Under the pieces are notes generated by a model, which saw only the letters and a list, made by a program, of their open reading frames with translations, searched no databases and was not told where the DNA came from. Below, piece by piece: positions 43,707 through 59,164 of a stretch of 64,000 nt of DNA. The first letter of the stretch is position 1. Every line of letters starts with the position of its first letter. The translations under genes were made by a program, and so were the position numbers. Source of the DNA: Medicago truncatula (Eukaryota; Streptophyta; Magnoliopsida; Fabales; Fabaceae); the NCBI RefSeq assembly GCF_003473485.1, contig NC_053042.1:51733762-51797761 (forward strand), in the 5' to 3' direction.

Positions 43707-44263
43707 TAGTAACAATTTACATGACATTCTTGTTTAACAAAACGAACGAACCAAACATGTATAATTCACGCGACTATGCTTCATGGTTCTTCAACTGAAT
43801 TAATTTCTGAGATGTCATCAAATGAAAGGAGTAACGATGAAAGGAGTAATGAGATGAAAATGATGCAAATTTGATCGAATATATATATAGGGGAAATGAC
43901 AACCAAATTACTTTTAAACCCTTGATCATAATCATATGATGATGGAAAAATTACACATGTTAGAATTTTGTTGGCTTAAAAATATCATGTAACACTTGTT
44001 ATTATTGGATTGGTTTTATGATCACATTGAAACATTTGAAATAGAAGAAGCATATCAACTATTTTCCTTTATCATGTTTAAATTTGTCATAAATAAATAA
44101 GGCAGTGCTAGTTAATAGCATTTACACACCATAAACAATTCATTTTTAGTCAACAATTGAGTTAGATGAGAGGAATATGATGTTAGAAAAGCATTAAATG
44201 AGTTATTGCATTTTAAAGTACCATGTGTACTATTGCATTTAGGCAAGGCAAATATATATAATA

Positions 44264-44515
44264 GAGATGTTTAAAACAAGTCATTAGTATTAATTTATGT
44301 GTTAATGATCTTATCAAAAATATAAGATGATTATCACATCCTAAATATAAGATGATTTGAATATAAGATGATTATCAAGAATAGATATTTGAATGATTAT
44401 CACATCTTAAATTTATTTTAAATTTAGGATGTGATAATCATCTTATATTCTTGATAAGATGTGATAAGATCATTATCACATCAATTAATACTAATGACTT
44501 GTTTTGAACATGTCT
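44264..44515. mobile_element. Foldback MITE, about 250 bp
   Basis: 'acaagtcattagtattaatt' near the left end is matched inversely near the right end, and the inner stretch (tataagatgattatcacatc) is also matched, with extra internal copies. The whole folds on itself. No clear target duplication. Confidence 0.7.
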
Positions 44516-44732
44516 CCACAAATTATCTTATACTCTGTAGCTGTGCCGGAGTTTCTGCAGCTGGCCAGAAAACTCAGTTGCATTAATTTCATCCCATTAA
44601 AATATTGACCCAATGGGTGTTGTTAGGGAATCGTTGATGGGTTTTCATTGTGGTGAGGGTTTGTGGGACAAATAAATTGGAAGGAGATCCTGAGATTCGA
44701 TTGACAATAATGAGGGTTTGTGAGATTAAGCT
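44516..44732. other. Left flank of the LTR element
   Basis: Host sequence ending in AAGCT (44728-44732), the target duplication. It may be the upstream part of the TBC/RabGAP fragment seen at 59.2 kb, but I cannot show coding similarity here. Confidence 0.4.
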
Positions 44733-47700
44733 TGTTATACCCTGTTTTTGGACCTAAAAATACTGGGCCCAATTTCATTTCAAACTTTGTCAATTATCAA
44801 ATTTCAACTGCACAGTTCAAACTGTCTCTGCCTCGCAGTATTTTTCAATCACAATTTTACCTATGTTTTTCTTGCATAAAACCTTTTGAAATGTCTTTAC
44901 TTGTCTTGTAAGTCATTTAAAAGTGTCTCTGAATCATTACGTTGCTTTTTTTTTTTTTTTTTTTTTTTTTTTTCACAGTTTATTTCAAAATTTGCAAAAA
45001 GTCATACAGAAGGGTATTTTGGTCATTTCCTGCAATGGGACCCATTTTCATCCTTGTGACTGTCTCTGAGTCTTTTCAAATTCATTTTTTTACTTTCCAT
45101 CAGTAAACCTTGCTAATTTCATTTCGAACTTGCATCTGAGTCAGTGTCGAGTCAATTTGAATCTGTTTAGGTCGTTTTTAGCCCTAGGGGCATTTTGGTC
45201 ATTTCACATAAAATTTTGGCATGGGGAGGTTACTTTGAAGTACCTCATTTAGGCCATTGGTTCGTTTTAGTCCGTTTTGTCAATTTTATTTTAGTTTCAC
45301 TTTACGTTTTGTCAGATTGCCAATTTTATTCCAATTTTATTTTATTTTACATTTTGATCCCCAAGAGGTCCAAAATTGCGTGTCAGTCCAGAATTTTCTT
45401 TTTTTTACATTTCAGTCCTTTTTGTCAATTGCAGTTCAGTCCCTTAATTTTTCAATTTTGCAGAAAGGTCCCAAATTAATTCTAAGTCCAAGGCCGTGCC
45501 ATTTCCATACAAATCCAGGTGTCACATTTTCATTGGCTCAAGTGTACACATGTCAACTATATAAACAGTGAGTCAGATTCAAAGCCATTAACAACACGCC
45601 AACTCATAAACACAATTCCAACTTTCTCTCTCTCAGCAATCAGATCAAAACAAGAAAATTCTCAGAATTTCTCAAGAACACCAAGAACAAAAACCCTAAC
45701 CGTTTTTTCAGAAATCAAATTCATCAGAATCAACAGTTTTTGAATCAATTCTCAGAGATTCTGTTGAATCTTCATCATCGAATTGATCATTCTCTGCAAT
45801 TCCAAACGCGAGCTCGCATTGAAGCAAGCTCAAGCGTTGATCACAGAGCGTGAAAAGAAGAGGGAAAGAAGCGAAGTTCTAAACCGGCGAAGAAGATGAA
45901 GAATCTGGACCGGTGAAGCAAACAGAATCAAAATCATCAAGAACAGAATCAAGATTTCCAAAGATTTTCTCCATTAAAGGTTTCAACCAAAACCTTAGGT
46001 AAAACTCATAAACTTTTCTCAGAAATAATATCACTGTTAAACCTGTAGAAAACAATCACGTGAGCAAAGCACACCAAAAAATTCCAGAATTCAAAGAAAA
46101 CTGTAACCGTAAACACGAAACCTAGATCCATAAGGATCTAGGTTTTGAAAGCAAGAACGAGTACTAGAAGCGTAATCAAACAACGAAACGATGTAGATCT
46201 TGAAACGATCTAAACCTTTCTTTTCAAAAAACCAAAAAATCAGTTTCAAAACCGTACGGAACTTTTTAGATCTACAACGTTTCAAACCGTATTTGAAAAA
46301 ACAGCTGCTGGATTCGTGTTTAGGGTTAAAGGACGAATCAAATGAAGTAAGAATCTTTGAAATCTGGAAATTTAGGTCACCGGAAACTGCATGAACTCGC
46401 CGGAGAAGATGAAGTTTCCGGCGGACCTTCAAGGTCTCCGCCGTAGCTTCATCCTCGCCGGCGGCGAGGTTAGTGAGAGGTGAGAGAAGAGAGAAGAGTT
46501 AGAGAGAGAATGAGAGCAGCAAAATGAAACAAACCGGAGCTCTGCCACTTTTATAAGCCAGTGAACCGGACCGGTCCAAGACCGGTCCAGTCCCTTTTGT
46601 TCCTGGCCGTTTGATCTAGGGTTTCAGAACCCTGGATCAATCGTACGCCCCCTGTGCATCCGGACCTTGTAGCTTTGGGCTTTGGGTTTGGGCTTAGTTT
46701 TCTTTCACGTTTTTTTGCTTTTTTGCTACTTGCACCATACTTGCCTGCTGTTTGCACCTCTGTTCATGTTAATTTTTATCAATAAATTCCAAGAAATTTA
46801 CTATGTCATTTTACTATTTTTCTTGTTAATTTTCAGTGGTATTTTACTTGGAAAAGTTGATAAAAATTTTAGTGTTGTTTTGTCAAGGGTTTTTACAATT
46901 TTGAGTCTTTTTTCTCACATGTTTACCCGTTACTTCGTGTGCATAATGTTCGTATTCGTCATGTTTGATTTGCATACTATTTCATATGAATTTTGCTACT
47001 GTTTGCTATGCATATGTCACTGTTTTGATGTGTTGGGTTTTATTCTTGCATCATGCGCATTATTCACCACACGTTTCCGGCTTATTTTCATCGTCACTCT
47101 ATCGTCTTATGCCATACTTTCTTCTATCACTTTATGTCATACTCTTCTTTTACCATTTTCTACTAACATTTCCTTTCATGTTGATCACTTCATAGCACTT
47201 CATTATCTTCACCATTGTCTTCTTTAGCTTAGTTTTCCCTTTTACAAATTGTAATTCATTTGGTGATGTAATATTTTACCATTGGTTTGTAGCTTGGCAA
47301 AGAGGCCATAGAATGTATTTAGGAAATGTTGTAATATGGACTATGGACACTATGGAGCATCGACACGCACACACTCACCTTAGATGCATGCATAGGATTG
47401 TATGGTTAGATAAGCGCTTAGGTTTTAAACACTTAGAGAAAATCCATCTTTTCTTTCAAAAAAAAAAAACAATTGAACTTCACTTCAAAAATTTTCATAA
47501 TAAGTATGAAGTCAACACTTCATTTCTTTTTCCTTTCTTTTTTCTTAAGAAAAATTCAATTCATCTTAATCATTTAGACTTTCTTTTTAATCACTAAACA
47601 AACCTCACTTTTTTTGCTAAATCTAATGCCCTTGAGGCCTCTCATCCCTATTCTTCAAAACCTCTTTTCAAACTTAAAACCAAACAATTAAAACAAAAAA

Positions 47701-48071
47701 ACAAGTTTTTTTAGCAAGAACTACGAACGGTTTTGATCCCTTAAAAGGGTACGTAGGCAATGAGTCAAAACTCATCCAAGCCGAAATAAAACTAAATTCT
47801 ACTTCTTCTCTCCCCCCATTCTTAACTAAATAAACCTCCCATTTTCAAAAGTAAGTAAAAATAAGCGTAGAAATCAACTTAGGAAAACGGCTCCTATAGA
47901 GGACTATAGTTACTCCGGGTGCCTAACACCTTCCCGTAGTAAAACCGACCCCCGAACTTAGAATCTAAGGGTTTTTTCTCAATTTTTCCCTTCCCAAGAA
48001 AAAAGAGAGATATCAACGGTCGAAAGGTACAAGTCCAATTAATGGCTTGACACCCAAAAACCATGATAACA
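44733..48071 (+). repeat. 5' LTR of the Ogre-like element (3339 bp)
   Basis: Starts TGTTATACCC and ends CCATGATAACA. A TATATAAA near 45559-45566 is the likely promoter. Long open frames inside (for example 46682-47227) recur in both LTRs and have no known match. I treat them as chance frames. Confidence 0.95.
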
Positions 48072-48075
48072 GAAA

Positions 48076-48092
48076 TGGCGACTTCACTGGGG
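48076..48092 (+). other. Primer-binding site, tRNA-Arg type
   Basis: TGGCGACTTCACTGGGG begins four bases after the LTR. It resembles the tRNA-Arg primer site reported for Ogre elements, with one base different from the form I remember. Confidence 0.75.
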
Positions 48093-49009
48093 ATTTCTTT
48101 TTAGCGGGTCGCGCCTAGTTTTCCTTAGTTTATATTTACGCTTTGTTTTATTACTTACATATGTGAATATTTGTTTACTTTCATTCAACGTGTGGGGTGA
48201 GAATATCAAAAGTCCTAACCCGGGCTGAGTGAACTTATGTTTAGGTAGAGATATAATCGACAATTCGATCCGGGGGTTGCCTCGTGTATTGGATTATGCG
48301 ATCAATCTCACATAGCTGAGGCATTTTGAAGGTGATATTGTCGGCGTGTGTTGTCATGCTTAGGCACTTCACTTTCAATTGTTCGACGAAGCTATGAACC
48401 GTAGTTACCAAACTCATCCTAGCCTTTTTAGGACGTAGTGCGGTGGCTAAATTGAGTGTTGTCTCAAACTTTAGTCGTCACGCGATACTACACTCAAACT
48501 AGACCTTCTCACAAATAATCATGGAACGGGTGTCGTCCTGTACTACCATGATATATGTGAGAGAGGTTGCAGTTTGGGAACTGTGTTAGAACCTTGGTTA
48601 CTACTATCCAAAGCCTTAGTTCACCGGACGCCGTGTCCATCCGTGGCCCTGTTACTTTGAATCTCAACCCACCTTGTTCTTTGTAACTAAACAAAACAAC
48701 CATGCATACATGCATTCATGCATAAGTTTTTTTTCACGCATACATCGAAGATTTTTTTAGACAGATCGAAACATTGTAAGACACCGCAGGTGTGAACTTG
48801 TATTCATAAGTTTACCATTGTAAAACCTTATTTTGCTTGTTTAACAGTGTTCACAATGTTTCGAATTTGTTTAAAAAGTCCTTCGATGACATTAAAAAGA
48901 GTCGTTTTTGCATTTGCATCTGCATATCATGCATCATATGCATCATACATCGGTCACAAAGGCTTCCAATTGCTCACTACTTCCTGGTTCCTCTGCCACA
49001 GTTTGAAAA

Positions 49010-50356
49010 GTGGCTCGTGCTCAGAAGGTCTACGAACCTGATAGAATCGATCGAACCAGAGAGTACAGAAGAAGGAAAAAGGCTATGGAAGAAGAGAACG
49101 CTCAGCTCCGTACCGAGTTAGCCACTCTAAGGGAGGAATTGGCTAAAGCTAATGATGTCATGACTGCTCTGCTAGCCGCTCAAGAGCAATCAGCTACAGC
49201 TATCCCTACAGCCACAACTGCACCGGTGACTACAAGCGTGCTCCCAACCGCATCTGCAGACGCTCGCTTTGCTATGACAGCTGGGTTTCCGTATGGGCTT
49301 CCACCGTTCTTCACTCCCAGTACTGCAGCTGGCGTTTCTGGTACTGTCAATAATGGCCAGATTCCTGGGAAGAACCATGTCTCTGTCAAGACCACCTTGC
49401 CTCAGACAACGGCCACTCTGGATCGATTGAGCTATCGGGGAACTCCCTTGGGAATGAGCACCTTTCTGGTTAAAGCCTTCGACGGATCCCGTAAGAACAT
49501 TCTTGGGGAGATAGATCTGCCAATAACTATCTGTCCCGAAACCTTTCTGATCACGTTCCAGGTCATGGACATCAATGCTGCTCAGCTACCTCCGTCGTAC
49601 ACGTATGCGCAATACTCTCAGCATCCCTTCTTTCCACCATTCTATCATCAGTATCCTTTGCCATCGGGTCAACCTCAGGTACCCGTTAATGCCGTCGTCC
49701 AGCGAATGCAACAACAGCCTCCAGCTCAACAACGACAGCAGCAACAGGCTAGACCTACCTTTCCTCTGATACCAATGTTATATGCTGAATTACTCCCGAC
49801 TCTACTTCTCAAAGGGCACTGCACAACCAGACAGGGCAAGCCTCCACCTGATCCATCGCCTCCCAAGTTCCGTTCGGACCTCAAGTGTGATTTCCATCAA
49901 GGTGCTATGGGTCATGATGTCGAAGGATGCTACGCGTTGAGGTACATTGTAAAAAAACTCATAGACCAAGGAAAATTGACCTTTGAGAATAACGTCCCTC
50001 ATGTCGTCGACAATCCTCTTCCGAATCACGCTGCTGTAAACATGATTGAGGTATATGAGGAAGCTCCCAGATCGGACGTTTGTAACGTTGCAACTCCTCT
50101 GGTGCCACTACACATCGAGTTATGCCAAGCCTCTCTGTTTGACCATGATCATGCCAGTTGCCCAGAATGCTTCCATAATCCTTGGGGTTGCTACGTTGTT
50201 CAGAATGACATCCAGAAACTGATGAACGACAATTATCTGACTGTCAATGACATCCAAGAAGGACAAGCTGCTGGCTGGGGCAAGTTAATACAACTCCTTG
50301 AGAATAAGCATAAAGAGGGTCTAGGATATTCCCCAACTTCAGGAGTCTCCACATGA
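49010..50356 (+). pseudogene. gag-like part of the Ogre-like element
   Basis: Fossil part. The N-terminal portion is charged and coiled-coil-like (AMEEENAQLRTELATLREEL). The C-terminal portion has the Cys/His block CDFHQGAMGHDVEGC seen in gag-derived proteins of plant gypsy elements. Part of a broken element. Confidence 0.75.
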
Positions 50357-50804
50357 ATCTTCTACAGTGCTGAGTTTATCAATGCAATTACTGAAGAGGC
50401 GACTGGATGTAGTCCTAGGCCTATGTTTGTTATACCAGGGGCATTGCGAGAAATTGGGATGCCATCATCATTCCTTCAATCATGCATGTTTCCGAGTAAT
50501 GTGTCTTGTTGCTTAAGTGTTTTGTTTTTCAAAAATAACAATCCTCTCGCTCTGCCCGAAGCGACAGTGATATTTTCTGTAAGGGCATGTTTGTTTCGGC
50601 ATCGCCGTTATTAATAAAAATTGTCGTTTCTTTCACGACTTTTATTTTTTTTAGTGCTTTTTTCCTTGGAAATAATGGTAATACCAGAAAAAACCAAAAC
50701 ATCTTTATTTTTCTTATCAATTTCAAAGAACTGCATAAAAGAAAAAAAAACCATTTTCTAAAATCATTCAACCATTCTATGCAGTTTGAACCATAATAAA
50801 CCCG

Positions 50805-53247
50805 TTGAACACAGTAATCCTACGGTTCCTCCAAATTTTGAATTCCCTGTGTATGAAGCCGAAGATGAAGAGGATGATGATATACCATATGAGATCACTC
50901 GACTGCTTGAGCAAGAATCAGCCTATTGTATGGAACGATGAATGCCAAGAAGCTTTTGATAGCATCAAGAATTACCTGCTGGAACCACCTATCCTTGTCC
51001 CTCCCGTGGAAGGAAGACCTTTGATTTTGTATTTGTCAGTGTTTGATGAATCTGTGGGATGCGTGCTTGGTCAACAAGATGAGACTGGAAAGAAAGAACA
51101 TGTTATCTACTACCTAAGCAAGAAGTTTACCGATTGCGAAACTCGGTATACAATGCTTGAGAAGACTTGTTGTGCTTTGGCCTGGGCCGCTAAACGCCTG
51201 CGTCATTATTTGGTGAATCATACAACTTGGTTGATATCCAGAATGGATCCGATAAAGTATATCTTTGAGAAAGCTGCTGTTACTGGGAAGATTGCACGCT
51301 GGCAGATGCTTTTGTCTGAATATGATATTGTGTTCAAAACTCAAAAGGCAATCAAAGGTAGCATTCTTGCCGATCACCTTGCTTACCAACCTCTTGATGA
51401 TTACCAACCAATTGAATTCGATTTCCCCGATGAAGAGATCATGTATTTGAAATCCAAAGACTGCGAAGAACCGTTGATTGATGAAGGTCCAGATCCCAAT
51501 AGCAAGTGGGGTTTAATCTTTGATGGTGCTGTCAATGCTTATGGTAAAGGAATTGGGGCAGTCATTGTATCCCCACAGGGGCATCACATTCCTTTTACCG
51601 CCAGAATCCTGTTCGAATGTACCAACAATATGGCTGAGTATGAAGCATGTATCTTCGGGATCGAGGAAGCCATTGACATGAGAATCAAACACCTCGACAT
51701 CTATGGAGATTCTGCGCTCGTCATCAATCAGATAAAGGGTGAATGGGAGACCCACCATGCTAAGTTGATTCCTTATCGTGATTATGCGAGACGTCTTCTG
51801 ACATATTTTACAAAGGTTGAGCTGCACCATATTCCTCGTGATGAGAACCAAATGGCTGATGCTCTTGCTACTCTATCCTCCATGTTTCGGGTAAACCATT
51901 GGAATGATGTGCCAATAATCAAAGTGCAACGCCTTGAAAGACCTTCGCATGTGTTTGCTATTGGGGATGTGATCGATCAGGCTGGTGAAAATATGGTTGA
52001 CTATAAACCCTGGTACTATGACATCAAGCAGTTCTTGCTAAGCCGCGAATATCCGCCGGGTGCTTCCAAACAAGATAAGAAGACCCTGAGAAGATTGGCC
52101 GGTAGATTCCTGTTAGATGGAGATATCCTGTACAAGAGGAACTATGACATGGTACTGTTAAGATGTGTTGATGAACATGAAGCAGAGCAGTTAATGCATG
52201 ATGTACATGACGGTACCTTCGGGACCCATGCTACAGGTAAGAAAGTTGCTACGGGCAGGTTACTACTGGATGGCCATGGAGCATGATTGCTACCAATACG
52301 CCAGAAAATGCCACAAATGTCAAATCTATGCTGATAAGATTCATGTGCCTCCGCACGCTCTCAATGTTATTTCATCCCCATGGCCGTTCTCAATGTGGGG
52401 CATCGACATGATCGGAAGAATTGAACCGAAAGCTTCAAATGGTCATCGTTTCATCTTAGTGGCAATTGACTACTTTACCAAGTGGGTTGAAGCAGCATCT
52501 TATACCAATGTGACCAAGCAAGTGGTAGCTAAGTTCATCAAGAACAACATCATCTGTCGATATGGTGTTCCCAGCAAGATTATTACCGACAATGGTACCA
52601 ACCTGAACAACAATGTGGTGCAAGCTCTTTGTGAAGAATTCAAAATTGAGCATCATAACTCTTCTCCCTATAGACCTCAGATGAATGGTGCAGTTGAGGC
52701 CGCCAACAAGAATATCAAGAGAATTGTCCAGAAGATGGTAACCACTTACAAGGACTGGCATGAGATGTTACCCTATGCTCTGCATGGCTACCGTACTACT
52801 GTGCGCAGTTCAACCGGGGCAACCCCTTTCTCTCTTGTATATGGTATGGAAGCAGTTCTTCCTTTGGAAGTGGAGATCCCATCTCTCCGTGTGATAATGG
52901 AAGCAAAGTTATCTGAGGCTGATTGGTGCCAAAGCCGGTATGACCAGTTGAATTTGATTGAGGAAAAACGTATGGATGCCATGGCTCGCGGACAGTCATA
53001 TCAAGCAAGAATGAAGACTGCTTTTGACAAGAAAGTCCATCCTCGAGAATTCAAGGTAGGGGAACTTGTATTGAAAAGGAGGATAAGCCAGCAACCCGAC
53101 CCAAGGGGCAAGTGGACGCCTAACTATGAAGGTCCTTATGTTGTCAAGAAGGCCTTCTCCGGTGGTGCTTTAATCCTTACACACATGGATGGTGTAGAAC
53201 TTCCAAATCCAGTGAATGCCGATATAGTCAAGAAATACTTTGCCTAG
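50805..53247 (+). pseudogene. pol-like part (RNase H, second RNase H, integrase)
   Basis: Fossil part. Recognised in order: the RNase H that belongs to the reverse transcriptase (ILYLSVFDESVGCVL); a second, archaeal-type RNase H (LIFDGAVNAYGKG, NNMAEYEAC, YGDSALVINQ, MADALATL); an integrase zinc region (CHKC); and the integrase core (WGIDMIG, ITDNGTN, NGAVEAANKN). Dual RNase H is a Tat-lineage mark. The coding region is not whole. Confidence 0.85.
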
Positions 53248-53269
53248 AAATATGAAAAGAACAGCGTGG

Positions 53270-54146
53270 TAGGTCGAAAACCCGAAAGGGCGGCCTAGGC
53301 AAAAATGCGCTTCCCGGTGGATCGAAAACCCGAAAGGGCGGTCCAGGCAAAAATAAGGGACAAAAAAAACAAATATGAAAAGCTCGCTGAGATTGTAAAC
53401 AACTCAGGCAAGAATGAGCGTCTCGATGAGCCGAAAACCCGGAAGGGCGGTTCATGCAAAAATGAGATTGAAACAAAAGGCAAGTAACTATATCTGGCTA
53501 ACCACCGTCCCCCTTGGGGCATTTGCAGCTGTTAATGACTATCTTCATCAAAAGCTCCTACACTTGCGAATTCAAAGTTTCCAGGAAATGTAATGATTGC
53601 TGTGTTCAATGTACCACCAACCAATAAAATTACCATTTTCCAAGCTTTGTGAATCCGTGGAGTCATGCCTTCGGCTGACCACCACTCTTATACATCAATT
53701 TGAGCTTGTGCTTTTGTTTAAAACTCTGTTTTCTTTCTACTTTCAAAGCTATATACAAAACATTTTCTTTCTATTTTGATAATGACAATGCTTGAAACAA
53801 ACATTTTGAAAATTGAAAACTTTTTGTCTATTTTGAAAAGCAAACCTGAGCAACAGGGTACATTCAAATGAAACATGCATGAGTGAGAGTATGTTGATGT
53901 CTATTTCAATATGTGTTACAAGCAGGTTCTCCTCCAGGATAGTCTGTGGTCAATGGCAAGAATGAAAAAACAGAATGAAAATGCATGAAAATGAAAAGGC
54001 TCGCTAAGTTGAAAACCCGGAAGGGCGGCTTAGGCAAGAATGAGCACCCCGCTGGATTGAAAACCCGAAAGGGCAGTTCAGGCAAAAATGGGGCATTGAA
54101 AAGAATTTATTTCCCCGGTGGATCGAAAACCCGAAAGGGCGATCCA
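53270..54146 (+). repeat. Covarying hairpin family 1 (six 28-nt copies)
   Basis: Six copies of exactly 28 nt at 53270, 53318, 53427, 54005, 54053 and 54119. Each is a 7-nt left arm, AAAA, CCC, a GNRA tetraloop (GAAA four times, GGAA twice), GGG, and a 7-nt right arm. All 42 outer-stem pairs form on the plus strand: left arms TAGGTCG, TGGATCG, TGAGCCG, TAAGTTG, TGGATTG, TGGATCG pair with right arms CGGCCTA, CGGTCCA, CGGTTCA, CGGCTTA, CAGTTCA, CGATCCA. Columns 2 to 4 swap A-T and G-C between copies. Wobbles are all U-G or G-U on the plus strand. 'ggcaaaaatg'-like sequence often follows. Confidence 0.8.
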
Positions 54147-54730
54147 GGCAAAAATGGGATGCAAAAAATGAATGAATGAAATTAAGAATATAACATGCAA
54201 AAAGCATTGACCACAGATGCAATGTCTACAACATATCCAGCACTGAAATGCCCAGCACAACGGCATTTTCCCCAGTCAGGTCTTCCAAGATTCTATCTCC
54301 AGCAAGTTGCATATCTACCTGCCCTCAGCTATGGTTCCGACACGTCTCCCAACGACGTCATCTCCAAAGAGGATTTCCAAGAATGTGTAACATAGCACGA
54401 GCCACTACGTGCCCAATACTCTAATGTCTTGTCTTCCCCGTGAAGTCGTGCCTACAAACTGCCAACAGTCATGCATTACAAGCATTCATACATGCATAAT
54501 CATGCATATTGTGTACCCATGCATTTAATGAAACTGTTATATCATCCATGCATATCGCATTTCCAATGTCAACATCAGTCTCAATTCAATACTCATGTCA
54601 GGTTCTCTGTCAAAACCTTGTGAGCCAATAATATCGGTCAATTTCTACCTTTCAATTCAAATCGGTGTCAAGTCAATCTCAATCTATATTTTGTCAAACA
54701 AACTGATCCCCAGTGAATATGTTTCTGTTT

Positions 54731-55546
54731 GGTCAAGTGGCTAGTTCAAGTCCAAGAACAGCTTGTACCTATCAATTTGCTTATGTTATCGGTCGAGTGC
54801 CCAGCTCAATCCAAGAGCAACTTGTACCTGTCTATCTGTTTCTGTCCGGTGGAGTAACCAGTTCGCATCCAAGAACAAGCTCACACCTGTTTATTTGCCT
54901 TTGCTTTCGGTCGAGTGACCAGTTCGAATCCAAGAACAACTCGTACCTATCTACTTTTCCATGACCCCGGTCGAGTTACCAGTTCGAATCCAAGAACAGC
55001 TCGTACCTGTCTATGTGTCTATGATTTTGGGTCAAGTGGCTAGTTCAAGTCCAAGAACAGCTTGTACCCGTCTATCTGTTTCTGTTCGCTCAAGTGGCTA
55101 GCTCGATCCAAGAGCAGCTTGCGCCTGTCTATTTTGTATTTGTCTCCGGTGGAGTAACCAGTTCGCATCCAAGAACAAGCTCGCACCTGTCTATTTGCCT
55201 TGCTTTCAGTCGAGTAACCAGTTCGAATCCTTAAGAACAACTCGTACCTGCCAATTTTACATGTTTTCAGTCGAGTCACCAGTTCGAATCCATAAGAACA
55301 ACTCGTACTTGCCAATTTTCTCTTTTTCCCAGTCGGGTCACCAGTTCGAATCCATAAGAACAACTCGCACTTTCCAATATCCCCAAGTGAGTTACCAGTT
55401 CGAATCCATAAGAACAACTCATGTTTGTCCAGTAACCTCTATCCCCTGTGAAGTGACCAGTTCGAATCCATAAGAACAACTCGCAGTTGTCTGTTTGTTT
55501 CATCCCCGGTCAAGTGGCTAGTTTGAATCCAAGAACAGCTTGTACC
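54731..55546 (+). repeat. Covarying hairpin family 2 (14 tandem units)
   Basis: Fourteen tandem units of about 55-65 nt. A typical unit is GGT-CGAGT-nACCA-GTTC-gaatccaa-GAAC-a-ACTCG-t-ACC, a two-part stem. Outer stem forms include CGAGT/ACTCG (54909), CAAGT/GCTTG (54731, 55091) and TGAGT/ACTCA (55388). Inner stem forms are GTTC/GAAC and GCTC/GAGC (54.8 kb, 55.1 kb). Outermost GGT/ACC becomes AGT/ACT in the units near 55.27 and 55.33 kb. A few units (3, 8, 13) pair only partly. Units 1-5 resemble units 6-10, so a five-unit block was duplicated. Confidence 0.78.
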
Positions 55547-55811
55547 TGTCCAACTTGCTTCTAGTTTCCCGTTACTCTGCTATTCACTATCTTTGTCAAT
55601 GTCTACCAATCCCGCAATGGATACGACATATTTTGTTAATTCCAATCCCCATGAGGTCTTGCATTCATAATCCAAATGATGCATGGCATGCATATTATTT
55701 GAAAATGGGTAGGCGTATTTTTACGTCCAAACACAGTGCAAATGCTAATATTTAAGTATCTTCGTCCTGTCAAGCCAAAGACTCCGTCTCTTGACTCTCC
55801 AGACAAAGAAA

Positions 55812-55827
55812 CTTAAATAGGGGCAGC
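55812..55827 (+). other. Polypurine tract before the 3' LTR
   Basis: cttaaataggggcagc lies directly before the 3' LTR; the purine-rich core AAATAGGGGCAG is the expected second-strand priming site. Confidence 0.7.
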
Positions 55828-58800
55828 TGTTATACCCTGTTTTTGGACCTAAAAATACTGGGCCCAATTTCATTTCAAACTTTGTCAATTATCAAATTTC
55901 AACTGCACAGTTCAAACTGTCTCTGCCTCGCAGTATTTTTCAATCACAATTTTACCTATGTTTTTCTTGCATAAAACCTTTTGAAATGTCTTTACTTGTC
56001 TTGTAAGTCATTTAAAAGTGTCTCTGAATCATTACGTTGCTTTTTTTTTTTTTTTTTTTTTTTTTTTCACAGTTTATTTCAAAATTTGCAAAAAGTCATA
56101 CAGAAGGGTATTTTGGTCATTTCCTGCAATGGGACCCATTTTCATCCTTGTGACTGTCTCTGAGTCTTTTCAAATTCATTTTTTTACTTTCCATCAGTAA
56201 ACCTTGCTAATTTCATTTCGAACTTGCATCTGAGTCAGTGTCGAGTCAATTTGAATCTGTTTAGGTCGTTTTTAGCCCTAGGGGCATTTTGGTCATTTCA
56301 CATAAAATTTTGGCATGGGGAGGTTACTTTGAAGTACCTCATTTAGGCCATTGGTTCGTTTTAGTCCGTTTTGTCAATTTTATTTTAGTTTCACTTTACG
56401 TTTTGTCAGATTGCCAATTTTATTCCAATTTTATTTTATTTTACATTTTGATCCCCAAGAGGTCCAAAATTGCGTGTCAGTCCAGAATTTTCTTTTTTTT
56501 ACATTTCAGTCCTTTTTGTCAATTGCAGTTCAGTCCCTTAATTTTTCAATTTTGCAGAAAGGTCCCAAATTAATTCTAAGTCCAAGGCCGTGCCATTTCC
56601 ATACAAATCCAGGTGTCACATTTTCATTGGCTCAAGTGTACACATGTCAACTATATAAACAGTGAGTCAGATTCAAAGCCATTAACAACACGCCAACTCA
56701 TAAACACAATTCCAACTTTCTCTCTCTCAGCAATCAGATCAAAACAAGAAAATTCTCAGAATTTCTCAAGAACACCAAGAACAAAAACCCTAACCGTTTT
56801 TTCAGAAATCAAATTCATCAGAATCAACAGTTTTTGAATCAATTCTCAGAGATTCTGTTGAATCTTCATCATCGAATTGATCATTCTCTGCAATTCCAAA
56901 CGCGAGCTCGCATTGAAGCAAGCTCAAGCGTTGATCACAGAGCGTGAAAAGAAGAGGGAAAGAAGCGAAGTTCTAAACCGGCGAAGAAGATGAAGAATCT
57001 GGACCGGTGAAGCAAACAGAATCAAAATCATCAAGAACAGAATCAAGATTTCCAAAGATTTTCTCCATTAAAGGTTTCAACCAAAACCTTAGGTAAAACT
57101 CATAAACTTTTCTCAGAAATAATATCACTGTTAAACCTGTAGAAAACAATCACGTGAGCAAAGCACACCAAAAAATTCCAGAATTCAAAGAAAACTGTAA
57201 CCGTAAACACGAAACCTAGATCCATAAGGATCTAGGTTTTGAAAGCAAGAACGAGTACTAGAAGCGTAATCAAACAACGAAACGATGTAGATCTTGAAAC
57301 GATCTAAACCTTTCTTTTCAAAAAACCAAAAAATCAGTTTCAAAACCGTACGGAACTTTTTAGATCTACAACGTTTCAAACCGTATTTGAAAAAACAGCT
57401 GCTGGATTCGTGTTTAGGGTTAAAGGACGAATCAAATGAAGTAAGAATCTTTGAAATCTGGAAATTTAGGTCACCGGAAACTGCATGAACTCGCCGGAGA
57501 AGATGAAGTTTCCGGCGGACCTTCAAGGTCTCCGCCGTAGCTTCATCCTCGCCGGCGGCGAGGTTAGTGAGAGGTGAGAGAAGAGAGAAGAGTTAGAGAG
57601 AGAATGAGAGCAGCAAAATGAAACAAACCGGAGCTCTGCCACTTTTATAAGCCAGTGAACCGGACCGGTCCAAGACCGGTCCAGTCCCTTTTGTTCCTGG
57701 CCGTTTGATCTAGGGTTTCAGAACCCTGGATCAATCGTACGCCCCCTGTGCATCCGGACCTTGTAGCTTTGGGCTTTGGGTTTGGGCTTAGTTTTCTTTC
57801 ACGTTTTTTTGCTTTTTTGCTACTTGCACCATACTTGCCTGCTGTTTGCACCTCTGTTCATGTTAATTTTTATCAATAAATTCCAAGAAATTTACTATGT
57901 CATTTTACTATTTTTCTTGTTAATTTTCAGTGGTATTTTACTTGGAAAAGTTGATAAAAATTTTAGTGTTGTTTTGTCAAGGGTTTTTACAATTTTGAGT
58001 CTTTTTTCTCACATGTTTACCCGTTACTTCGTGTGCATAATGTTCGTATTCGTCATGTTTGATTTGCATACTATTTCATATGAATTTTGCTACTGTTTGC
58101 TATGCATATGTCACTGTTTTGATGTGTTGGGTTTTATTCTTGCATCATGCGCATTATTCACCACACGTTTCCGGCTTATTTTCATCGTCACTCTATCGTC
58201 TTATGCCATACTTTCTTCTATCACTTTATGTCATACTCTTCTTTTACCATTTTCTACTAACATTTCCTTTCATGTTGATCACTTCATAGCACTTCATTAT
58301 CTTCACCATTGTCTTCTTTAGCTTAGTTTTCCCTTTTACAAATTGTAATTCATTTGGTGATGTAATATTTTACCATTGGTTTGTAGCTTGGCAAAGAGGC
58401 CATAGAATGTATTTAGGAAATGTTGTAATATGGACTATGGACACTATGGAGCACCGACACGCACACACTCACCTTAGATGCATGCATAGGATTGTATGGT
58501 TAGATAAGCGCTTAGGTTTTAAACACTTAGAGAAAATCCATCTTTTCTTTCAAAAAAAAAAACAATTGAACTTCACTTCAAAAATTTTCATAATAAGTAT
58601 GAAGTCAACACTTCATTTCTTTTTCCTTTCTTTTTTCTTAAGAAAAATTCAATTCATCTTAATCATTTAGACTTTCTTTTTAATCACTAAACAAACCTCA
58701 CTTTTTTTGCTAAATCTAATGCCCTTGAGGCCTCTCATCCCTATTCTTCAAAACCTCTTTTCAAACTTAAAACCAAACAATTAAAACAAAAAAACAAGTT

Positions 58801-59164
58801 TTTTTAGCAAGAACTACGAACGGTTTTGATCCCTTAAAAGGGTACGTAGGCAATGAGTCAAAACTCATCCAAGCCGAAATAAAACTAAATTCTACTTCTT
58901 CTCTCCCCCCATTCTTAACTAAATAAACCTCCCATTTTCAAAAGTAAGTAAAAATAAGCGTAGAAATCAACTTAGGAAAACGGCTCCTATAGAGGACTAT
59001 AGTTACTCCGGGTGCCTAACACCTTCCCGTAGTAAAACCGACCCCCGAACTTAGAATCTAAGGGTTTTTTCTCAATTTTTCTCTTCCCAAGAAAAAAGAG
59101 AGATATCAACGGTCGAAAGGTACAAGTCCAATTAATGGCTTGACACCCAAAAACCATGATAACA
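55828..59164 (+). repeat. 3' LTR of the Ogre-like element (3337 bp)
   Basis: Near-identical to the 5' LTR, same termini, followed by AAGCT. Confidence 0.95.

Follow-up and report, generated by a model that had tools for sequence, protein, structure and literature searches.

Six GNRA-tipped hairpins in a Medicago truncatula Ogre retrotransposon: a candidate cis-acting RNA array between pol and the 3' LTR

Six RNA hairpins of one architecture lie between the pol gene and the 3' long terminal repeat (LTR) of an Ogre-like retrotransposon in Medicago truncatula. The element sits in a stretch of 64,000 nucleotides of contig NC_053042.1 (positions 51,733,762 to 51,797,761 of assembly GCF_003473485.1), which we call the window. 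The helices covary as a set, and their pairing is kept in families whose integrase is broken. This supports an original prediction, made from the letters of the window, that the hairpin matters for the RNA of the element. Judged from sequence, the hairpin shape probably helps this RNA to survive, to leave the nucleus or to be packaged.

The array may be an ancestral cis-acting RNA device of Ogre elements, and we find this proposition evenly balanced. Such a device would consist of two 2+1 modules of rod-shaped GNRA hairpins. It would bind a protein of the plant or of the element and decide the fate of the genomic RNA (export, stability or packaging). Families without reverse transcriptase (RT) or with a dead integrase would use it in trans. 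It would also be the first repeated platform of this kind in plant Ty3/Gypsy elements.

Results

Architecture of the array

The array starts 15 bases after the pol stop (pol ends at 53247, unit 1 begins at 53263) and ends about 1.7 kb upstream of the 3' LTR. Six 28-nt cores start at 53270, 53318, 53427, 54005, 54053 and 54119, all on the + strand. Each core has seven outer pairs (helix P2), an unpaired AAAA on the 5' side, and an inner stem-loop CCC-GNRA-GGG (helix P3 and tip). All 42 outer and all 18 inner pairs form. The tip loop is GAAA in four copies and GGAA in two. In these respects the original prediction, six identically built 28-nt hairpins with no other loop than GAAA or GGAA, was right. 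Its unit was too short: the 28-nt core stands, but the outer helix P1 and the fusion of units into two pairs were missed. The full units are:

53263..53311, + strand: hairpin unit 1; P1 AGCGT/GCGCT; core 53270-53297; loop GGCAAAAAT; no linker to unit 2
53312..53360, + strand: hairpin unit 2; P1 TCCC/GGGA; core 53318-53345
53420..53468, + strand: hairpin unit 3; P1 GTCTC/GAGAT; core 53427-53454
53999..54045, + strand: hairpin unit 4; P1 GCTC/GAGC; core 54005-54032; one base to unit 5
54047..54093, + strand: hairpin unit 5; P1 CCCC/GGGG; core 54053-54080; P1 of the same slot tested in other copies
54114..54158, + strand: hairpin unit 6; P1 CCC/GGG; core 54119-54146

Each unit thus runs from P1 through a conserved A-rich loop to P2 (7 bp), an A4 bulge on the 5' strand, P3 (3 bp) and the GNRA tip. 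The layout is that of two modules, each a fused pair plus a single unit (units 1-2 + 3 and 4-5 + 6). Within the fused pairs the spacing is 48 nt in the window and 48-49 nt in most loci (54 in L088), and the other gaps vary more among loci. Since 0-1 nt separates the P1 helices of units 1-2 and of units 4-5, the fused units probably stack end to end at P1. Of four whole pairs that were folded, three gave two adjacent rods (the L016 piece ended short of P1).

For the genome-wide comparison we used 491 nhmmer matches. Thirteen with a gapped core were dropped, which left 478 gap-free cores, 136 of them distinct. The pooled cores come partly from overlapping loci, so most counts use distinct sequences. 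A GNRA tip closed by the stem is present in 121 of the 136 distinct cores; the other 15 have AAAA, GAAG, TAAA, AGAA or CAAC.

The junction between P1 and P2 is similarly constant. Its 5' side has two bases (G, then G, A or C), the first being G in 137 of 142 distinct rows. On the 3' side, G at +2 (134 rows) and C at +3 (133 rows) precede a run of A (142 rows at +4, 141 at +5, 129 at +6 and 141 at +7). The conserved 3' strand xGCAAAA(A/G)T(TA) hence faces a 5' side of two nucleotides. Positions -1/+1 are Watson-Crick in 63 of the 136 distinct cores and G.G in 51, while -2/+3 is G-C in 129 of the 142 rows. These pairs suggest that in some units P2 may extend by two more pairs, with one G bulged.

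No hairpin matched a family of Rfam 15, known ribozymes included; cmscan over 53200-55850 up to E 5 gave three weak matches elsewhere. Tandem Repeats Finder reported no array at 53263-54158, so the hairpins are not head-to-tail tandem repeats. We set aside a small-RNA precursor, for which the stem is presumably too short for Dicer. The stretch between the modules, 53480-53960, contains the short linear motifs AAGTAACTGCATC, GTGTTCAATGTACC and AATTTGAGC, kept across subfamilies. No convincing common fold was found for these 480 nt: RNAalifold reached only -13 kcal/mol with nine sequences.

Distribution in the window and the genome

The core pattern GAAAACCCGNAAGGGC with up to three mismatches occurs seven times in the window, compared to 0.70 expected (maximum of 100 shuffles, 4). 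These are the six exact array copies and one match elsewhere with three mismatches. In the 430-Mb genome the pattern has 2273 + 2133 = 4,406 exact matches and the reversed control 0 + 0. The original prediction had proposed a covariance model as a check. Our 47-row model, run on both strands of the window at E<=1, has matches in the array region only. It returns four rows rather than six because overlapping fused units compete. In viral contigs and genome contigs from collections without plants, a degenerate hairpin pattern had no match, nor did the integrase in the viral contigs.

The six slots are orthologous positions when the window is aligned with 20 other loci. Over the array region, ten of them share 64-66% identity with the window copy, and several subfamilies are represented. 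Only five slots are found in L010, L017 and L021, and some other locus pieces are incomplete. In most subfamilies P1 reads GCTC/GAGC in slots 1 and 4, GTCTC/GAGAC in slot 2, ATCCT/AGGAT in slot 3, GTCCC/GGGGC in slot 5 and TCCC/GGGA in slot 6. The P1 arms are different between slots and match within each slot.

Two loci depart from this layout. L087 has three consecutive hairpins like those of slots 5 and 6 (1021-1174, spacing 63 nt), perhaps an array expansion in progress. In L022 (1158-1216) the 5' half of unit 5 stands in unit 6, which is consistent with gene conversion between slots 5 and 6.

Loci were picked in several ways: L009-L028, L059-L072 and L085-L098 by the hairpin motif, L079-L084 as the regions upstream of motif loci, L029-L058 and L073-L078 by integrase, and L102-L105 by RNase H. 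Eight loci were picked by RNase H alone. Four of them (L102-L105) have integrase and hairpins; the other four (L099-L101 and L106) have neither.

The helices covary as a set

In the 47-row alignment, 97.2% of 470 cells are paired. It contains 62 changes on both sides of a pair, compared to 19.6 (sd 6.6) after shuffling, and none of 500 shuffles reached the observed number. If the alignment is shifted by one to three columns, pairing falls to 26-52%.

A stricter test takes the phylogeny into account. As in R-scape, the null is built on a tree (FastTree tree, Fitch reconstruction, substitutions placed again at random columns). With 171 sequences, the summed score of P2 and P3 is 336, compared to a null mean of 12 (sd 61, maximum 217; 0 of 500 simulations). 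The result is the same (0/500 each) when the set is thinned to 40 and to 17 sequences. Shifting by up to six columns yields scores between -54 and 37. With 64 sequences, the top five of 861 column pairs are all helix pairs, counting the -1/+1 extension of P2.

For P1, the test re-dealt the 3' strands among rows, and both real and shuffled rows were scored at the best of seven registers. The mean is 4.10 bp, compared to 3.13 with shuffled partners (222 rows, 0/2000), and 3.78 compared to 2.74 in 18 thinned rows (0/2000). P1 has at least 4 bp in 179 of the 222 distinct rows and fewer in the rest.

Relaxed patterns give a similar picture across the genome. With five arm positions per side left free there are 3112 matches and none in the control. 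Among the 100 of these listed, 96 have all arm pairs and four have one broken pair, each once; the 100 comprise 26 distinct strings (strings were scored by script, rows per string counted by reading). With P3 left free there are 680 matches, again with a control of 0. The 100 listed are CCC/GGG, compensated TCC/GGA and wobble forms, plus a few that are broken. For the last P3 pair, the changed forms in the whole genome are compensated CCT/AGG (307, a number inflated by family amplification; control 0 + 1), G.U CCT/GGG (132) and CCC/AGG, broken in the sense strand (58).

Evidence for the sense RNA as the structured molecule

The P2 and P3 cells of the 136 distinct cores comprise 1137 Watson-Crick pairs, 180 G.U, 24 A.C and 19 others. 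Two fixed-wobble positions hold much of the G.U; without them, counted by hand, 57 G.U stand against 19 A.C. A large excess of G.U over A.C points to the sense RNA as the structured molecule, as originally predicted. All pairs are formed in 98 of the 136 distinct cores and in 429 of the 478 gap-free matches.

Loci found through pol alone point the same way. At 30 of 30 loci picked by integrase the hairpins are sense to pol, three to seven per locus in a relaxed scan. Of 4350 candidates 150 were scored, and these loci are the best of them; all are 100% identical in the 215-aa query, hence one young family. The relaxed scan also yields one or two weak matches per locus on the opposite strand, with 7 of 10 pairs where a score is given. 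The original prediction had named two observations that would speak against it, arms that diverge without compensation and equal occurrence on both strands in unrelated DNA. The 96 of 100 listed free-arm matches with intact arms and the 30 sense loci show neither.

Common variants keep their pairs better than rare ones. Haplotypes that occur three or more times number 31; they retain 307 of 310 pairs, and 28 of the 31 changes between them preserve pairing. Among 71 changes to rare variants one or two steps away, 46 keep pairing, 23 break it and two are of other kinds; 24 rare variants further away were excluded from this comparison.

Pairing is kept in families with damaged coding regions

Five loci in two families share integrase lesions. 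L082, L085 and L097 have a 7-nt deletion and overlapping deletions of 43-52 nt in common; in L090 and L093 the common deletions measure 2, 56 and 7 nt, and the 7-nt one covers the stop codon. We infer from these five loci that the broken integrase predates the spread of the two families. In L083 and L084 the integrase is in pieces and has stops. L079-L081, by comparison, have an integrase that is 80-83% identical and matches in one piece, and they carry the hairpin array.

The first family with a broken integrase (L009, L025, L028, L085, L094, L097) keeps 323 of 330 pairs, and 27 of 33 hairpins are fully paired. The second (L010, L011, L013, L088, L090, L093) keeps 282 of 290 pairs with 21 of 29 hairpins fully paired, six further gapped hairpins being left unscored. 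Families were assigned by similarity and hairpin letters, L088 and L094 by hairpin letters only. Loci of the window family keep 603 of 610 pairs. Seven loci taken as RT-less from an 822-aa frame keep 375 of 380, RT loss having been tested directly in the window copy only. Where the motif served to pick a locus, one or more of its hairpins is ascertained, which raises these fractions somewhat. Because 97-98% of the scored stem pairs are kept despite a broken integrase, the array very likely acts in cis.

The host element

The element that carries the array fits a Ty3/Gypsy Tat/Ogre LTR retrotransposon on the + strand, 44733-59164. Its parts, and a separate tandem array, are:

44733..48071, + strand: 5' LTR, Ogre-type; target duplication AAGCT (5 bp) at 44728-44732
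48072..48100, + strand: putative primer binding site, TGGCGAC a few bases past the 5' LTR
49007..50356, + strand: rearranged open frame without Pfam match; by eye protease-like, then gag-like; no RT domain follows
50790..52286, + strand: RNase H and additional RNase H (aRH) of pol, Pfam PF17917 and PF13456
52198..53247, + strand: integrase, end of pol, Pfam PF00665, E 2.5e-13
54731..55564, + strand: tandem array of ~60-bp monomers, separate from the hairpin array, in the Tat-type hypervariable 3' region
55828..59164, + strand: 3' LTR, followed by the target duplication AAGCT

The two LTRs, 3.34 kb each, are 99.85% identical (2 mismatches and 3 gap openings in 3343 columns compared). Downstream of the 5' LTR, TGGCGAC resembles what we take to be the tRNA-Arg complement. 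LTR size and primer site are compatible with M. truncatula Ogre1, which has a tRNA-Arg primer and an LTR of 3529 bp (PMC2533021; here and below, papers are cited for the excerpts consulted). The Pfam order in the window element is RT_RNaseH, RVT_3, rve. An additional RNase H between RNase H and integrase is an Ogre/Retand trait (PMC6317226), so RNase H, aRH and integrase in that order indicate the Ogre/Retand arrangement. Together with the LTR length, this agrees with the Tat/Ogre identity first proposed.

A Pfam search found no recognisable RT domain in the window copy, which is hence RT-less. At the junction of protease-like and gag-like sequence (by eye, 49540-49620), a 35-mer has 56 exact matches in the genome. 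The window copy thus belongs to an amplified subfamily, which is probably non-autonomous.

The ~60-bp monomers contain GGTCAAGTGGC and AGTTCGAATCC, which presumably resemble box A and box B of pol III promoters (D-arm and T-arm of tRNAs). ARAGORN found no tRNA in 47000-58900, a range that includes these monomers. Just before the 5' LTR, at 44263-44515, lie nested inverted repeats with 54-nt arms (93% complementary) and 68-nt arms (84%). They look like a miniature inverted-repeat transposable element or another foldback element.

Discussion

The constitutive transport element (CTE) of type D retroviruses and the RNA transport element (RTE) of the mouse intracisternal A-particle naturally lie before the 3' LTR. 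Both are cis-acting RNA structures that export unspliced RNA. Extra CTE copies are stronger in some settings, and in reporters the elements are put between gag and the 3' LTR (PMC1363727, PMC4829213). The Ogre array occupies the same kind of place, as structured sense RNA that follows the genes and precedes the 3' LTR; this is comparative evidence.

To explain the persistence of the hairpins, we tentatively favor a cis-acting array in the sense RNA of the Ogre lineage, to which we assign slightly less than an even chance. A-rich unpaired elements and GNRA tips, repeated almost identically, would bind a protein several times. Multiple binding would raise the export and/or stability of the full-length RNA, and enough unspliced genomic RNA would thereby reach the cytoplasm. 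We prefer export or stability to packaging because the array sits in a place like that of CTE and RTE, and like that of the element for nuclear expression (ENE) of Evade (PMC12501189). The Ogre intron, located between the protease and RT parts, is partially spliced (PMC6317226), which would argue in the same direction.

Several observations weigh against this proposal. The export receptor that CTE binds and that serves CTE and RTE, NXF1, is said not to be used by plants (PMC12786077), and an export role of the Ogre array is putative. For RT-less copies, the argument from the intron would hold if they keep it. The original prediction spoke of full covariation. The tree-based test upholds this for the summed helices (0/500), but an R-scape-type test per pair, run twice, does so for no single pair: the best E is 0.19 among 861 pairs (64 sequences) and 0.26 among 946 pairs (171 sequences). 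In the latter test helix pairs rank 1, 2, 3, 5 and 10, with unpaired column pairs interspersed; the remaining six stand at rank 36 or below among the 946. Pair-by-pair covariation is not independent evidence either, because the six copies are paralogous and few deep changes separate them. At least one pair is broken in 38 of the 136 distinct cores. Fold energies of single units gain modestly over shuffles (z -0.8 to -2.4). Across nine divergent loci, identity in 50-nt bins of the units (0.54-0.86) does not always exceed that of the inter-module stretch 53600-53700 (0.70-0.71). Finally, all sequences compared come from one genome, and most subfamily loci were picked by the motif, which biases pair counts upward for one or more hairpins per locus.

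The main rival to export or stability is packaging or dimerisation. Gag, or its nucleocapsid part, would bind the hairpins and select the RNA for virus-like particles, perhaps helped by docking of GNRA tips between hairpins. The array is kept in integrase-broken families and in the RT-less window copy, which needs packaging in trans, near-identical repeated units suit multivalent binding, and GNRA tips are frequent (121/136). However, known retroviral packaging signals are mostly 5'-terminal, and GNRA tetraloops are closed, without the flexible loop G that nucleocapsid zinc knuckles prefer. The signal of mouse mammary tumour virus, for example, needs the 5' untranslated region (UTR) and gag (PMC3473059). 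We consider packaging possible but unlikely. We doubt still more that the array is a stability element of another kind, whose rods would stop 3'-to-5' decay or attract a protective host protein, with no role in export. The Evade ENE, in the same spacer, makes the transcript more stable and increases mobility (PMC12501189). Yet the units lack U-rich internal loops, which leaves no ENE-type triple helix with poly(A), and the array ends ~1.7 kb short of the 3' LTR.

The hairpins could also be a mere product of history, one hairpin duplicated to six whose arms were copied together by gene conversion or recent amplification, with no present function. Independent double changes are few, the tree test per pair is not significant, the L022 slot looks like a conversion between units 5 and 6, and many copies are very young. 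Copying would not favor G.U over A.C, though, and it sits badly with P1 arms that are slot-specific yet matched within the slot, with the near-constant spacing of units 1-2 and 4-5 next to more variable gaps, and with common variants that keep 307 of 310 pairs while 23 of 71 rare-variant changes break pairing. We give this explanation little credence. Least probable, and barely credible to us, is an element that acts as DNA, with hairpins in single-stranded cDNA or duplex DNA that serve reverse transcription (extra plus-strand priming) or recombination. The purine-rich 3' strand of P1, in some units TTAGGGGCA, does resemble TAGGGGCAG, the probable polypurine tract upstream of the 3' LTR. Against this, the G.U excess on the sense strand is a signature of RNA, and the 5' strand of P1 changes in step with the 3' strand.

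Among plant elements, the ENE of Evade/Copia93 in Arabidopsis is similar to the Ogre array in its place in the spacer between pol and the 3' LTR, its cis action on element RNA and its repeated tracts (PMC12501189). It differs in form: the ENE has U-rich internal loops and forms a triple helix with the poly(A) tail (PMC12501189), whereas in the Ogre array bulges and loops are A-rich, the tips are GNRA, and the unit is present in six separate copies. A U-rich internal loop flanked by G-C pairs was not found in the Ogre units, whose unpaired parts are AAAA and xGCAAAA(A/G)T. Without U-rich loops and without an Rfam match, the Ogre unit is not an ENE and belongs to no Rfam family.

The hypervariable 3' UTR tandem repeats of Tat/Ogre elements belong to the same lineage and lie in the same region between pol and the 3' LTR (PMC7004042, PMC11963269). 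These repeats are head-to-tail, with monomers of variable sequence and length (PMC7004042, PMC11963269), and family-specific (PMC11963269). The hairpins, in contrast, are not tandem, have slot-specific arms and are common to several subfamilies. Sirevirus motifs, like the hairpins, are multi-copy, strongly conserved, symmetric and located in non-coding parts of plant LTR retrotransposons (PMC2829016). Those boxes, however, are palindromic, have CGG-CCG as their core and lie in the LTR, upstream of the TATA box, or in some cases near the ENV gene; repeated polypurine tracts come in addition. The excerpts of that paper describe no asymmetric-bulge GNRA RNA unit (PMC2829016).

Among the titles and abstract openings listed by keyword searches of the open-licence literature, none described hairpins in the Ogre/Tat 3' region. 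The hairpin sequence strings had no match in that literature, and the main text of the Ogre/Tat papers checked does not mention the word hairpin. Structured 3' cis elements of retroelements are already known; our searches of the open-licence literature gave no published account of this unit or of its 2+1, 2+1 layout.

In pea, Ogre-like elements account for >20% of the genome (PMC2206039). A survey of Medicago truncatula from 2008 covered 85 LTR families, and the largest was Ogre1 (PMC2533021). According to the consulted excerpts of a December 2025 review, RNA export of plant LTR retrotransposons has not been studied directly (PMC12786077). A compact, six-fold, covarying unit offers an experimental handle: it can be used in reporters, its stems can be broken and restored, and it can serve as bait for a protein partner. 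The array may also account for how families that lack RT or have a dead integrase could stay clients of active families.
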